Of a stretch of DNA of 64,000 nucleotides, positions 4,345-21,030 are shown piece after piece; within the stretch, counting starts at the first letter, position 1; each line of letters starts with the position of its first letter. The DNA comes from Desulfoscipio gibsoniae DSM 7213 (GTDB lineage Bacteria > Bacillota > Desulfotomaculia > Desulfotomaculales > Desulfallaceae). The notes below the pieces were generated by a model that was not told where the DNA came from, did no database searches, and saw only the letters and a list, made by a program, of their open reading frames with translations. Made by a program: the position numbers and the translations under genes. The stretch is from assembly GCF_000233715.2 (NCBI RefSeq), contig NC_021184.1, positions 868,001-932,000 on the forward strand, given 5' to 3'.

Positions 4345-5439
4345 TTACCCGGTTGCGCATGCCTGGCCCTTTATGAAATTGATATTTTTCCGGTCGAAGC
4401 CTAGAGTAACAGTTTTGTTTTCCCGCAGGCCAAGCTCAAAAAACCGGTTAGGAGTGATGTAGGCTGTAAAATTAACTTGCCCGGATTGTACTTTGACTTC
4501 GGAATAAACACCATTATTGGAAATGGTTAAGACAGTTCCCGTCAATTGATAATCGGTCTTAAGGGCGCCATTACCCACCACTATATCCTCCGGCCTTAAT
4601 CCTATGAAATACTTATTATTACCTCCGGTAGTTGGATGTTTGCCTGCACTTTGTTCTTCCGGCACCTGCATGTCAAGCTGCAGCACATCACCCAGCATCG
4701 CTTTACCATTGACCTGGTGCAGCGCAAATACGTTTTTCATACCTACAAATTCAGCTACAAATTGAGAGTTGGGCATTTTAAACACTTCTTCAGTAGTACC
4801 TACCTGCTGAACCTCGCCATTTTTAATTATGGCTACTCTTTCGGCCAGGGAAAAAACTTCACTGAAATTATGTGTAACCATTAAGGTGGTAATTTTTAGA
4901 GCGCTATGCAATGCTTTAATTTCCGCTTGCACTGTTTCTTTGGTATTGGTGTCTAAGGCACTGAACGGTTCGCCCAGTAAAAGGATATCAGGTTCCACAA
5001 TCAATGCCCGGGCCAGCGCTACCCGTTGTTTTTCGCCGCCGCTGAGATTATCGGGATAGCGCTTTAGCAGGTGATCGATACCCAGCATTTCCACAAGCAT
5101 ATGTAACATTTCAGGCTTACCTGCAACGTTCCGTTTTTTCTTAAATCTTAGCCCGTATTGAATATTGGCCAGTACATTAAGGTGCGGGAAAAGGGCGTAA
5201 TCCTGATAGACTATGGAAATATTCCTTTGCTCCGGTTTTAAGTGGGTAACATCCCGTCTGTGAAAAAAAAATCGCCCACCTGACGGCTGCTTAATGCCGG
5301 CGATAGTTTCCAAAAGCACTGTTTTGCCTGACCCGGTGGGGCCTAAGAGAGCAAAAAACTCCCCTTGATTAATGGTCAGTTGAATGTTTCGCAGGGCAAA
5401 TCCAAACAAATTTACGTTTAAATCACGTATTTCCAGCAT
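4345..5439 (-). CDS. wtpC: Tungstate/molybdate ABC transporter ATP-binding protein with altered Walker B
   Basis: A 364-residue ATPase of the ModC/WtpC type. It has Walker A (GPTGSGKT), a Q-loop (VYQDYALFPHLN), the signature LSGGEKQR and a C-terminal TOBE-like region of about 110 residues (GLRPEDI onward) that in this family senses oxyanion. The Walker B motif reads ILLLGEPFSALD: the usual Asp before the catalytic Glu is Gly, encoded by GGC at 4974-4972, one base away from GAC. The catalytic Glu remains. ATG 5439 is chosen for its AGAGGTG site; the gene overlaps the permease gene by 17 bases, indicating translational coupling. Confidence 0.85.
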   Translation of the reverse strand: MLEIRDLNVNLFGFALRNIQLTINQGEFFALLGPTGSGKTVLLETIAGIKQPSGGRFFFHRRDVTHLKPEQRNISIVYQDYALFPHLNVLANIQYGLRFKKKRNVAGKPEMLHMLVEMLGIDHLLKRYPDNLSGGEKQRVALARALIVEPDILLLGEPFSALDTNTKETVQAEIKALHSALKITTLMVTHNFSEVFSLAERVAIIKNGEVQQVGTTEEVFKMPNSQFVAEFVGMKNVFALHQVNGKAMLGDVLQLDMQVPEEQSAGKHPTTGGNNKYFIGLRPEDIVVGNGALKTDYQLTGTVLTISNNGVYSEVKVQSGQVNFTAYITPNRFFELGLRENKTVTLGFDRKNINFIKGQACATG

Positions 5440-6220
5440 CTCGCACACCTCTTTGAGCAATAACTCGCAATACAATAAATATAGCCAGCGATATAGCTAT
5501 TAAAATAGCGGAGACCGGTTTAGAATACTCCAGCCCGAAGGAATTAAACCGATCGAAAATTAAGGTGGGCGCAATCATGGGGTGGTAGGTAAGGATAATC
5601 ACCGCTCCAAATTCACTTATGGAACGGGCCCAGGTTAGAATCATCCCCGTTAATATGCCACGCCAGCCAACGGAAAAGGTGATCAGTATGAAGGTTTGCA
5701 TGTGAGTGGCCCCAAGGGTACGGGAGACGTACTCCAGTTTGGGCGATATGGCTGCAAATGAATCCTTGGCCGCGTTAATCAGTAAAGGCATACTTACAAA
5801 TGTCATAGCGGTGACAATGCCAATACGGGTACCAACAACCTCTAGTCCCAGGTTTTCCAGCAATCTGCCCAGCCAGCACTGCTGGCTTAAAACCGTTAAT
5901 AAAATAATGCCCACCACAGTATGAGGAATAACTATGGGAATATCGATGATGCTTTCCACCAATCTTTTGCCTCTAAATTCATTGCGGGCCAAAAAATAGG
6001 CAAAAGGTACACCAAAAATGAACACAATCATAGTAGTAATTGTGGCCGTGTATATACTGTTCCAAATTGCGGCCAACACTTCCCGATCTCTTAAAGTTTG
6101 CAATAGTATCTGGCCGTCAGTGGTGATTAATGAGTTGATTATTGGATACATAATAAATAGAAGAATTAAAAGGCCCAAAAAAGCAGAGGTTAAATATAAC
6201 TTCTCAGTTTTCAATTTCAT
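5423..6220 (-). CDS. wtpB: Tungstate/molybdate ABC transporter permease
   Basis: A 265-residue integral membrane protein with about six hydrophobic helices and the binding-protein-dependent permease (EAA-loop) region SRTLGATHMQTFILITFSVGW, followed by GMILTWARSISEFGAVIIL, which is close to the typical end of ModB/WtpB proteins. It should form the membrane channel with the overlapping ATPase gene. A gap of 241 bases separates it from the binding protein gene upstream; that gap holds an imperfect hairpin at about 6250-6280 (GCTGCCGGG with CCCCGACAGC) that could tune expression between the binding protein and the channel. Confidence 0.85.
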   Translation of the reverse strand: MKLKTEKLYLTSAFLGLLILLFIMYPIINSLITTDGQILLQTLRDREVLAAIWNSIYTATITTMIVFIFGVPFAYFLARNEFRGKRLVESIIDIPIVIPHTVVGIILLTVLSQQCWLGRLLENLGLEVVGTRIGIVTAMTFVSMPLLINAAKDSFAAISPKLEYVSRTLGATHMQTFILITFSVGWRGILTGMILTWARSISEFGAVIILTYHPMIAPTLIFDRFNSFGLEYSKPVSAILIAISLAIFIVLRVIAQRGVRDAGNT

Positions 6221-6461: not shown

Positions 6462-7475
6462 CTACCCGGTGATTTCCCGTAACTCCTCGGGCATGGCCTC
6501 TTCACCCTTTATGACTAGCGGATCTTCAATGGGCTGGCCATTGTCTTCCATTATTTTCAAACCTTTATCTTTGCTCAGCAAAAACTTTAAGAATTCAATG
6601 GCGTTCGCCTGGTTGGGTGCATTTTTTATCAGCGTGACACCGTATACAATTGGCATGCCCACCTGGGTAATCACTTCGCCCGGCTGTTTTCCGGTGGTAT
6701 CTACCGTGGCTTGTTTATAAAATTCGGCCTGGTTAAGATCGCTTAAATTAACCTGTGGCGGCAACTCGACATAAGGCATATTGTGCTGCTCGGCTACAGA
6801 ACGATAGATAAATAGGTAATCAAGAGCCCCGGATTCTACCATAGCCAGCAAGTCGGTTTCTTTGGGTCTGATATTGCGAGCCGGGCGCTTTTCATCTAAC
6901 TTTTGGTACAAATCAGATATTTGATAGTGTTCGGCAGCCAGCTGCCAAACCATCAGTGCCCGGTAGCCGCATGGGTCGGCGTTAGGATCGCTGTGCCCGT
7001 ACTCAACACCTTCCCGCAACAGTATTTCCGGCCAGTTATCACTGTTTATTTCATCCTTGTATTTACTGTGCTCCGAATACATGATAACCATTTCATTTTT
7101 AGCAAATAGCGCATTCCATTCTGCAAAATCGGGAATCAGCAAATTATCAATTACCGCATAGTCCGCCGAAGCAACTATGTCGGCAGGCTTGCCTAGATCG
7201 GTGACCTTTTTAGCACACTCACGGCTACCCGCAGCTTCTCTTTGTACATCCACGCCCGGGTGCAGCAGCTCAAATTCTTTTTCCATCTGGTCAAATGGCA
7301 CTGATAAACTACCGGCGTGGAAGATAATTAACTTGCCGGTTAGATTCGAAGACGCTTGTCCTTCATTGATCGGCTGATTAGAATTGTCAGCATCGGTAGC
7401 CCCGGAACAGCCCGCCACAAAGGCAATAGCTATAATTAGGTATAACAGTAACAGTTTTTTGCTAAGTTTAAGCAT
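6462..7475 (-). CDS. wtpA: Tungstate/molybdate-binding lipoprotein
   Basis: A 337-residue extracellular solute-binding lipoprotein: the signal peptide ends in the lipobox FVAGC, so Cys is lipidated. The fold start IIFHAGSLSVPFDQMEKEFE, followed by AAGSRECAKKVTD and DIVASADYAVID, is the hallmark of the WtpA/ModA-like oxyanion binders (Ser in HAGSL and the SADY region coordinate the anion). Asp, Glu and Tyr positions fit WtpA, which prefers tungstate, better than ModA. ATG 7475 follows an AGAGAGG site. The upstream leader carries two Moco/Tuco-type riboswitches, so cofactor level should control this operon. Confidence 0.88.
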   Translation of the reverse strand: MLKLSKKLLLLYLIIAIAFVAGCSGATDADNSNQPINEGQASSNLTGKLIIFHAGSLSVPFDQMEKEFELLHPGVDVQREAAGSRECAKKVTDLGKPADIVASADYAVIDNLLIPDFAEWNALFAKNEMVIMYSEHSKYKDEINSDNWPEILLREGVEYGHSDPNADPCGYRALMVWQLAAEHYQISDLYQKLDEKRPARNIRPKETDLLAMVESGALDYLFIYRSVAEQHNMPYVELPPQVNLSDLNQAEFYKQATVDTTGKQPGEVITQVGMPIVYGVTLIKNAPNQANAIEFLKFLLSKDKGLKIMEDNGQPIEDPLVIKGEEAMPEELREITG

Positions 7476-7539
7476 TTTTATAACCTCTCTTTCTTTTAAT
7501 TGCTGTTGCATATAACTAAGGCAACAATCGCTTCCTCAT

Positions 7540-7584
7540 AAAAAATAGGCCGGGTTTGCTACGCAACAAAATAACCCGGCCTAC
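7540..7584 (-). terminator. Intrinsic terminator of the proximal riboswitch
   Basis: Read on the minus strand, TAGGCCGGGTT (7583-7573) pairs perfectly over 11 bases with AACCCGGCCTA (7556-7546) and is followed by six T residues. It lies between riboswitch 1 and wtpA, the position expected for the expression platform of a switch that works by premature termination. Confidence 0.85.
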
Positions 7585-7605
7585 TATTTCTTGCACATGA
7601 TAAAA

Positions 7606-7704
7606 CCCTCCTTTCCGCACCGGGAGGCACGGTAGTTTCCCACCGCACCCTGTCGGCCCGCTCACCCTGGCCGTTCGTTGGCTGTAGGCGTCCGGGCTCG
7701 GAGA
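7606..7704 (-). promoter_or_regulatory. Moco/Tuco-type riboswitch 1 (proximal to wtpA)
   Basis: On the minus strand the segment starts with CTCCGAGCCCGGACGCC, contains GCCGACAGGGTG and GTGGGAAACTACCG, and ends with GCCTCCCGGTGCGGAAAGGAG-like conserved bases. These are the conserved blocks of the Moco RNA motif (compare GCCUCCCG and GGAAAGG in the E. coli moaA leader). CTCC at 7608-7611 and CTCGGAG at 7697-7703 close the outer P1 stem. The downstream genes encode a tungstate/molybdate transporter, so binding of molybdenum or tungsten cofactor and switching off uptake is the expected role. Which cofactor is bound cannot be told by eye. Confidence 0.82.
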
Positions 7705-7718
7705 ATATGTATTTATAT

Positions 7719-7755
7719 AAAAAACCCGCCATTGCGGGGAAAATGCAAAGGCGGG
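7719..7755 (-). terminator. Intrinsic terminator of the distal riboswitch
   Basis: On the minus strand CCCGCC (7755-7750) pairs with GGCGGG (7730-7725) and is followed by a run of six T. It sits directly after riboswitch 2 and before riboswitch 1, so each switch appears to have its own terminator. Confidence 0.75.
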
Positions 7756-7774
7756 CCGCTAAAGCCTGTCAATT

Positions 7775-7870
7775 ATCTCCTTACCGCAATGGGAGGCATG
7801 CCGGTTTCCCGATACACCCTGTCGGTCCAGCAGCCATAACGCCATGTTTTAGGCCGGCGGACTCGGAGAA
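7775..7870 (-). promoter_or_regulatory. Moco/Tuco-type riboswitch 2 (distal)
   Basis: A second copy of the same RNA motif lies about 70 bases upstream of riboswitch 1. It starts with CTCCGAGTCCGCC, contains ACCGACAGGGTG and GGGAAACCGG, and ends with GCCTCCCATTGCGGTAAGGAG-like blocks; CTCC (7777-7780) and CTCGGAG (7862-7868) close the stem. The sequence differs clearly from copy 1 in the variable stems, so it is not a recent duplication. The stretch from 7871 to 8115 upstream should hold the promoter, but I could not fix its boxes. Confidence 0.8.
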
Positions 7871-8115
7871 AGCATTCGTTTTGAGCATATTTTCTATATT
7901 TCTCCGTGGATTGCCATTATTCCTTTGTAAATGCTCAAAAGAATTTAACTTAAGAAGTTATGCCCATGTGCTGCGGTACCTATGCGGGTGTGCTTTGCTG
8001 TGCAACGCAACGATCATTGTCCAGCCTGCTAGGTGATCAGTGTTTTTTTAGGGTAGTCTTAATAGCTAGACCTGCAATTAGACATAAAAGCTTGATGCTC
8101 GTTAATATATTGAGA

Positions 8116-8817
8116 TTAATGACCGCATGCGGCAATAAATTCCTTAATCTCTATTACAGGTTGATAAAAAATATCCTGAACCGAACCTATCTGTTCCAAC
8201 CGGCCGTTGGCAATAACGCCGATTTTATCCGCGAGTTCACGTGCCTCGGTAAAATCGTGAGTAACATAGAGGGTCGTTAAATTCAACCTGCTATGGAGCG
8301 TCTTGATTTCTTTGCGAATGCTTTTTGCGGTAGCGGGATCAAGGCTTGCCAGTGGTTCATCCAGGAGTAAAATTTTTGGTTCCCTGATCAGAGCACGTGC
8401 TAAGCCCACACGTCTTTTTTCACCTCCGCTTAAATCCTTCGGATAGCGGCATTTTAAGTGACCGATATGTAAAAGGTCAAGCATTGACTCAACCTTGGTG
8501 GTTATTTTGTCAGCCGGGTAGCCGGTTGCCCGCAGGGCAAAAGAGATATTATTAAATGTATTCAAATGGGGAAACAAGTATATATCCTGAAGAAGATAAC
8601 CAATATCACGTTTTTCAGTAGGGATGTTATTCATATTCTGCTGGTTAAAATATACTTCTCCCTGGTATCCTGCTAATCCCGCAATTACATTTAATAACGT
8701 GCTCTTGCCTGCACCTGTGTAACCCAGAAACACAACCAGTTCGCCGGCTTTTATGTCCAGGGTTATGTTTTTTAAACAGTAAGGCGTGGTAATATTTTGC
8801 AAGCGAATAAAAGACAT
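8116..8817 (-). CDS. ABC transporter ATP-binding protein of the NitT/TauT-like oxyanion module
   Basis: A 233-residue nucleotide-binding protein with Walker A (GYTGAGKST), Q-loop (LLQDIYLFPHLN), signature LSGGEKRR and intact Walker B (ILLLDEP), plus the switch His in YVTHDF. No C-terminal TOBE domain follows. By sequence it leans toward ModC/PotA-type ATPases although its permease is SsuC-like. ATG 8817 is preceded by GGAGGT; the gene start is 2 bases after the permease stop, so the two are translated together. It is the last gene of the operon that starts with the DUF364-type gene. Confidence 0.85.
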   Translation of the reverse strand: MSFIRLQNITTPYCLKNITLDIKAGELVVFLGYTGAGKSTLLNVIAGLAGYQGEVYFNQQNMNNIPTEKRDIGYLLQDIYLFPHLNTFNNISFALRATGYPADKITTKVESMLDLLHIGHLKCRYPKDLSGGEKRRVGLARALIREPKILLLDEPLASLDPATAKSIRKEIKTLHSRLNLTTLYVTHDFTEARELADKIGVIANGRLEQIGSVQDIFYQPVIEIKEFIAACGH

Positions 8818-10665: not shown

Positions 10666-11394
10666 CTAGCGCCCGTAAAAGCAAACACGGGGTAAAGAAA
10701 ATAGTGCAGCAAGGCCGGCAATGGTGACTCCATAAAAGATGACCGGTTTTCCCCGCTCAAGCTCCGCCAAAGTGTCGTTGACAAGAACAGTCCCCGTAGT
10801 TAAAACAATATCCGCCCAATCTATATTTTTAGCAGTATTGTCAGGACCGCTGATTAAAACTCCGAGCTTTTCCCGCCCAATGTTGTCCGGGTCAAGGTCG
10901 CTGACTTTTATTTTAAAATGCTTGACCAACTCCTCAATCATTGCCGGCTGATAACCAACAAATGCAATTTTAGGTTGACCATAATGTTGGGTGATGTATT
11001 CGGGTAATTGCCGGGCACAAAGCCTGGGTTCTTTATCTTTGCAATGGTCTGTGCCTTGTACTTTTCCTAAATAGCGCATCACTGCGTTAAGGGTGGCCAC
11101 AAATACTGCTCTATTGTGATTAGTATCGAAAGTCAGCCGTAAAACTTCTTCCAACGTACCGTGAAACTGTGCCGGTTGATCCGTGAAAGCCTGCCCCACA
11201 CAGTCTCGATATGTAGCTTGCATCATTACTTCTTTACCTTTGAGCAAAGGAAAATCCGTACGGTCGGGACGGCCAATCGCTTCCTTGGCGGTCAAATCCC
11301 GTGTGGAAACGATATCGATCGCTTCCCCGGAATGTAACCCGGCCTCATCAATAATTACCCGCAATTTTTCTCGGGCTTCTTCCAATAATGACAT
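10666..11394 (-). CDS. DUF4213/DUF364-type Rossmann-like protein
   Basis: A 242-residue protein that I recognise as the family with an N-terminal DUF4213-like part and a C-terminal Rossmann-like part (PF04016, once described as a putative heavy-metal chelating domain). The signs are TYRDCVGQAFTDQP in the first half, KIAFVGYQPAMIEEL, VSDLDPDNIG and TTGTVLVNDTLAELE in the second. No catalytic activity is established for the family. AAGGAGGA precedes ATG 11394. It is the first gene of the operon with the NitT/TauT-type transporter and is downstream of a ModE-like operator, so a role in binding or handling the imported metal or oxyanion is likely but unproven. Confidence 0.75.
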   Translation of the reverse strand: MSLLEEAREKLRVIIDEAGLHSGEAIDIVSTRDLTAKEAIGRPDRTDFPLLKGKEVMMQATYRDCVGQAFTDQPAQFHGTLEEVLRLTFDTNHNRAVFVATLNAVMRYLGKVQGTDHCKDKEPRLCARQLPEYITQHYGQPKIAFVGYQPAMIEELVKHFKIKVSDLDPDNIGREKLGVLISGPDNTAKNIDWADIVLTTGTVLVNDTLAELERGKPVIFYGVTIAGLAALFSLPRVCFYGR

Positions 11395-20856: not shown

Positions 20857-20901
20857 GGGAAAAATAATAGATATAATTTAAGTAAAAATTTACATAAAAA
20901 G

Positions 20902-20990
20902 TTTGGGGAGCTCATGTTATGGGCTGAGAAAGGGCTTTTGAGTACCTGACCCATGAACCTGATCGGGGTAATGCCCGCGTAGGGAAGGTA
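20902..20990 (+). promoter_or_regulatory. TPP riboswitch
   Basis: The leader contains the THI-element blocks GGGGAGCTC, GGGCTGAGA, GACCCATGAACCTGATC-like pairing bases, and GGGTAATGCCCGCGTAGGGAA. These match the thiamine pyrophosphate aptamer. A terminator follows six bases later, and then the thiSGHFEC operon, which makes the thiazole and pyrimidine halves of thiamine; high TPP should stop transcription. Confidence 0.95.
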
Positions 20991-20995
20991 TAGTG

Positions 20996-21030
20996 AAAAA
21001 AGCGCACCTGACTTACGTGGTGCGCTTTTT
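20996..21030 (+). terminator. Terminator of the TPP riboswitch
   Basis: GCGCACC (21002-21008) pairs with GGTGCGC (21019-21025), followed by five T, directly after the aptamer. Confidence 0.88.

Follow-up and report, generated by a model that had tools for sequence, protein, structure and literature searches.

Tandem P3-less RNAs of the Moco/Wco family, each followed by an intrinsic terminator, in the wtpABC leader of Desulfoscipio gibsoniae

Two Moco RNAs and two terminators precede wtpA

The tungstate transport genes wtpABC lie on the minus strand of the window, by which we mean the whole 64-kb stretch of Desulfoscipio gibsoniae DNA that was analyzed (Table 1). The product of wtpA passed the NCBIfam cut-offs, with a score against the WtpA model above the cut-off of 355 bits, and its closest named WtpA match is that of D. 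geothermicus. The longest open reading frame begins at 7511; the start codon is most likely the ATG at 7475, which is preceded by a ribosome binding site (GAGAGG) and opens a signal peptide. The wtpB and wtpC products are 74-78% and 61-70% identical, respectively, to their counterparts in close relatives, where both genes are kept beside wtpA.

An Rfam covariance search of the window found two matches to the Moco RNA family, RF01055, in the wtpABC leader, 45 nt apart. Both cover the full model (positions 1-135) and clearly exceed its gathering score, 36; the E-values in Table 1 cover the whole window and all families. P1, P2, P4, P5 and the GAAA loop are kept in both copies. Read toward wtpA, the order is copy 1, a hairpin with a U run, copy 2, a second hairpin with a U run, and then wtpA, wtpB and wtpC. 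There is no open reading frame between the aptamers: the 45-nt gap contains terminator 1, and terminator 2 follows copy 2. Both terminator regions are GC-rich and fold much better than shuffled sequences; a generic terminator pattern scan listed only terminator 1 of the two. A sequence-only reading of this DNA had placed two diverged Moco motifs in series at 7540-7870, each with its own intrinsic terminator, and had named covariance-model scoring as a check. That scoring accepted both copies and rejected neither, the next gene is indeed wtpA, and the range was essentially right, copy 1 actually starting at 7880.

Table 1. Coordinates of the wtpABC genes and their leader features in the window
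Feature	Position	Strand	Score or energy
Moco RNA aptamer copy 1 (5' copy), P3-less	7761..7880	-	RF01055, 61.4 bits, E 2.5e-12
Putative antiterminator strand of switch 1 (P5 3' side + P1 3' strand), complementary to loop and 3' arm of terminator 1	7775..7798	-	duplex -25.6 kcal/mol, including CCAUUGCGG:CCGCAAUGG
Intrinsic terminator 1, hairpin 7756-7724 plus U run	7716..7756	-	-18.4 kcal/mol; shuffle z -2.5; found by generic pattern scan
Moco RNA aptamer copy 2 (3' copy), P3-less	7591..7715	-	RF01055, 68.3 bits, E 2.5e-14
Putative, weaker antiterminator strand of switch 2 (P1 3' strand + linker)	7588..7613	-	duplex -15.5 kcal/mol
Intrinsic terminator 2, hairpin 7584-7545 plus U run	7537..7584	-	-21.7 kcal/mol; shuffle z -4.6
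wtpA, tungstate-binding lipoprotein	6462..7475	-	NF003196, 408.6 bits; TIGR03730, 362.5 bits
wtpB, tungstate permease	5423..6220	-	NF040839 best match, 304.8 bits, under equivalog cut-off 340
wtpC, transporter ATPase	4345..5439	-	NF040840 best match, 337 bits, under equivalog cut-off 440

A permissive Rfam search of positions 7480-8120 found no third, degenerate Moco RNA upstream. Between 7880 and 8116, from copy 1 to the upstream operon, there was no match to a promoter consensus, and promoter scores were no better than those of shuffled sequences. Just upstream of copy 1 (window 7885-7945, minus strand), reading by eye suggested an inverted repeat, TTTTGAGCAT...ATGCTCAAAA, and a segment, CGGAGAAA, complementary to the P1 5' strand UUUCUCCG. 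Elsewhere in the window, a TPP riboswitch was found at 20894-21002 on the plus strand (70.2 bits).

Pairing of aptamer strands with the terminators

Terminators are a regular companion of this RNA family in the clade. One was found within 115 nt downstream of 60 of the 68 distinct clade aptamers, as compared to 13 on average in dinucleotide shuffles. Complementarity between aptamer and terminator was assessed at 45 non-redundant loci by exchanging terminators among them. The P5 strand (CCUCCC..GG) paired better with the loop and 3' arm of its own terminator than with swapped ones (-9.04 versus -7.67 kcal/mol), and the P1 3' strand with the linker paired better with the 5' arm of its own terminator (-13.3 versus -10.7 kcal/mol); neither difference was reached in 5000 permutations, counts that are not exact probabilities because related loci had been thinned and are not fully independent. 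P2 and P4 showed no such signal at the 45 loci. Comparison of whole aptamers as antiterminators gave no clear signal, which appeared with P5 and the linker alone. The median cost of the antiterminated state was 1.0 kcal/mol with a locus's own terminator and 6.8 kcal/mol with a swapped one (p 2e-11). Thus, the same strands appear to form both the ligand-binding core and the antiterminator, and binding is therefore predicted to turn expression off. A non-exhaustive literature search found nothing specific on the antiterminator of Moco riboswitches, and we claim no priority for it.

The two switches differ in their computed folding energies. In switch 1, antitermination costs 0.1-1.4 kcal/mol, and the antiterminator pairing is the strongest among the 45 loci. 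In switch 2, the terminator is favored without ligand by 8.9-12.3 kcal/mol, which places it among the most biased of 53 loci; a similar bias, 7.8 kcal/mol, is found in one of the closest single wtpA leaders (L010). Furthermore, when 15 leaders of other loci were substituted, 6 of them equaled or beat switch 2's own. Because of this bias and the performance of the swapped leaders, control by switch 2 is not evident from thermodynamics. In these folding models, copy 1 looks like a nearly balanced, responsive switch and copy 2 like a leak-tight one that is biased to terminate. Among the tandems, the better balanced switch was not consistently in the first or in the second position.

Subtype, ligand and divergence of the two copies

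The P3 stem is the only published feature that discriminates between Moco and Wco RNAs, its absence being associated with the tungsten cofactor by a correlative rule (PMC2408646). The P3 columns of the model are empty in both wtp copies; neither has the stem of the P3-bearing Moco subtype, and both have the P3-less form of the Wco (Tuco) subtype. By the P3 criterion only, the two copies are assigned to the same subtype. The D. gibsoniae genome, a single contig of 4,855,529 bases, contains 17 Moco RNAs, all without P3 (a few of them judged by hit length). The genes that follow them include those for a MOP-type aldehyde oxidoreductase, moeA-like proteins, a modA-type transporter, a tupA-like binding protein, a formate dehydrogenase alpha subunit and aldehyde ferredoxin oxidoreductases (AOR). 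The association of the Wco subtype with tungsten metabolism is also seen here, as wtpA, AOR and tupA-like genes are present in the genome, and a tungsten-type benzoyl-CoA reductase has been reported in D. gibsoniae (PMC4148979). Nevertheless, P3-less RNAs precede both molybdenum-type genes (modABC, a Mo-hydroxylase-type gene) and tungsten-type genes, so the correlation between a missing P3 and the tungsten cofactor is not clean in this organism. Since wtp genes lie downstream and P3 is missing, the tungsten form is most likely the ligand of the wtp leader, which we call Wco-type; the molybdenum form, or both, are less likely. Two short, weak Moco RNAs were also noted (L018:4291-4399 and L019:3832-3940; 39-40 bits). 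Their loop is GCAA, a receptor is absent, and no downstream terminator was found for either one; the L018 RNA precedes an aldehyde ferredoxin oxidoreductase gene.

Between the wtp copies, the differences fall in the apical stem of P2 and in the tetraloop receptor, and copy 1 also departs at a single nucleotide of the core. After P5, copy 1 has GGUAAGGAG where 67 of 68 clade aptamers have GGAAAGGAG, its A-to-U change being the single exception; the core of copy 2 is GGAAAGGAG exactly. Both copies carry a GGAAAC loop in P4, and the GNRA (GAAA) tetraloop and receptor of RF01055 are present, the P2 receptor being of canonical type in copy 1 (CCUAA..UAUGG) and degenerate, non-canonical in copy 2 (CCUACAG..CCAGG). 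Copy 1 folds no better than shuffled sequences. Because an otherwise invariant core position is changed and folding is no better than in shuffles, ligand binding by copy 1 could be impaired.

The sequence-only reading was right that the copies are diverged: they are 62% identical, as compared to an average of 61.7% among the Moco RNAs of the genome. A recent duplication in place was therefore rejected, since the wtp copies are about as close to each other as Moco RNAs of this genome are on average, whereas those of a tandem before a moeA-like gene are 91% identical. The single wtpA RNAs from within the genus are the nearest to copy 2 (69-71% identity), whereas copy 1 is most like the first RNA in the paralogous modABC tandem leader (74%). 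These affinities would fit an older wtp switch, copy 2, in front of which a second leader, copy 1, was added; support in the aptamer tree was too weak to date the doubling or to insist on the order of events.

D. gibsoniae and 40 related genomes were searched with RF01055, and the counts that follow cover the 34 genomes whose matches were collected. These contain 237 Moco RNAs, 49 of which form 24 tandem leaders (23 doublets and one triplet; gap of at most 150 nt) in 16 genomes. Tandems of Moco RNAs are thus common in the clade. Every copy has a terminator after it in 18 of the 24, and 23 of the 24 look same-type by sequence or hit length. The wtpA orthologues of seven relatives are each preceded by exactly one P3-less Moco RNA and then a terminator, so that, within the sample, the doubling at wtpA is lineage-specific.

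Several other tandems were observed in the survey. In D. gibsoniae, the second one (L014:4084-4445) precedes the MoCF_biosynth (moeA-like) gene, and the identity of its copies points to a recent duplication; the third (L017:575-867) is P3-less and precedes a modA-type molybdate transporter. The triplet (L133:235-746; G022:C1:656534-657045) has a terminator per copy and lies before an [FeFe] hydrogenase gene. In two congeneric genomes, tandems (L056 and L058) lie ahead of a CBS-domain sigma-54 activator, which suggests that a Moco/Wco-type cofactor may control a regulator. In the D. gibsoniae window, a gene for a DUF364 ("heavy-metal chelation") protein (10666-11394, minus strand) has as neighbors the genes for a ModE-domain protein and for an NMT1-type ABC transporter. 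Tandem Moco RNAs lie ahead of homologues in genome G010 (L057, 50% identity) and, it appears, in G032 (L132), a link between DUF364 and molybdenum or tungsten metabolism.

The leader in G032 (C23:48622-48296; L132:2497-2823) is the only mixed pair among the 24. Its upstream RNA has a 7-bp P3 (GCCGGGU..ACCUGGC, -11.7 kcal/mol), its downstream RNA has none, and a terminator follows each. The two score 45.4 and 61.8 bits and precede a DUF364 gene and a ModA/TupA-like binding protein, names given by sequence resemblance rather than by family search. Going by P3, this leader appears to be a better two-input candidate than that of wtpABC.

A tandem of terminating OFF switches and its published counterparts

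We consider it likely that the wtpABC leader is a same-class ("pseudo-cooperative") tandem of two independent terminating OFF riboswitches of the P3-less Moco/Wco RNA family. Without ligand, the P5 3' side and the P1 3' strand with the linker would pair with the arms of the next terminator, and RNA polymerase would continue. With a metal-pterin cofactor bound, these strands would be locked in the aptamer, the terminator would form and transcription would end. We infer that both copies bind such a ligand and act independently of each other. Each transcript would then face two termination decisions, and because it must pass both, import would be shut off over a narrower range of cofactor and with less leak. 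For two equal independent OFF switches, the computed 90-to-10% range falls from 81-fold to 40-fold; for unequal ones, it is mainly the leak that is lowered. Doubling thus probably makes the shut-off sharper, and that part of the sequence-only reading, a sharper response from separate platforms, fits published proposals (PMC2408646, PMC9481103).

The same reading had offered a Moco/Tuco two-input gate, in which one copy would sense the molybdenum cofactor and the other the tungsten cofactor. Under such a gate, either cofactor, or only both, would shut the operon. The modest identity of the copies and their seemingly different backgrounds, copy 2 among the wtpA singles and copy 1 near the modABC leader, would suit such a gate, as would the unique A-to-U change in the core of copy 1 and the non-canonical receptor of copy 2. 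Against it, both copies lack the one published discriminator, their divergence is that of the genome average, P3-less RNAs in this genome precede genes for either metal, and nearly all clade tandems look same-type. A two-input tandem joins aptamers of different ligand classes; here, by sequence, family and subtype are the same, and for that reason the two-metal gate is most likely wrong and, in our estimate, very unlikely. As for the argument that differences in the variable stems allow different ligands, none of the differences in P2, receptor and core is known to be linked to ligand choice. That P3-less copies nonetheless split their preference (e.g., Wco versus Moco, or nucleotide forms of the cofactor) through core changes outside P3, such as that of copy 1, appears highly improbable; if true, wtpABC would respond to two metals.

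A less remote alternative, which we still hold to be rather unlikely, is that only one copy is functional and the other is a decaying inserted or duplicated leader whose terminator acts as a constitutive attenuator. The departure of copy 1 at a position conserved in almost all clade aptamers, the strong ligand-free bias of terminator 2 and the sufficiency of a single copy in relatives speak for it, but both copies score far over the gathering threshold, retain the family's helices and GAAA loop and have strong terminators, and the antiterminator pairing of switch 1 is unsurpassed among the loci compared. That either hairpin, or both, should fall outside the Moco RNA family is a negligible possibility: the moderate score of copy 1 alone would speak for it, the covariance search with its very small E-values refutes it, and the P3-less copies ahead of wtpA in seven relatives count against it as well.

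As a cultured strain whose P3-less RNAs precede both molybdenum- and tungsten-type genes, D. gibsoniae suits a test of whether an RNA without P3 is truly specific for tungsten. For gauging the effect of doubling, natural single/double pairs are plentiful in the clade, with one copy at the wtpA of relatives and two here, and the P5 strand and linker, set against the terminator arms, constitute a testable antiterminator.

Tandem Moco RNAs were described in Syntrophomonas wolfei and Geobacter metallireducens in 2008 (Regulski, PMC2408646), and steeper, "digital" control by Tuco was proposed for a P3-less triple with terminators in S. wolfei (PMC2408646). Judged from its sequence, the wtp leader is a further case of this published architecture. 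Like the S. wolfei leader, it has serial P3-less Moco RNAs with terminators after individual copies before Mo/W-transport genes; in S. wolfei, terminators were seen behind the first two of three copies and the operon is a mixed one of seven genes, whereas the wtp leader has two copies, both with terminators (PMC2408646). Sherlock et al. (2022) listed Moco tandems (13 doublets and 2 triplets) and Wco tandems, which they classed as pseudo-cooperative (PMC9481103). Similar to the wtp leader, these have the same class twice per leader with separate expression platforms, but their Wco tandems are said to lie before genes unrelated to cofactor biosynthesis (e.g., hydrogenase), whereas the wtp leader precedes a tungstate importer (PMC9481103). 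The E. coli moaA Moco riboswitch belongs to the same RNA family and is also repressed by its cofactor, as predicted for the wtp copies; it is single and P3-bearing, and its P1 covers the ribosome binding site, so that control is translational, in contrast to the terminators of the wtp leader. Tandem TPP riboswitches differ from the wtp leader in ligand and fold; like it, they join two complete switches of a single class, and readthrough is decided at each separately.
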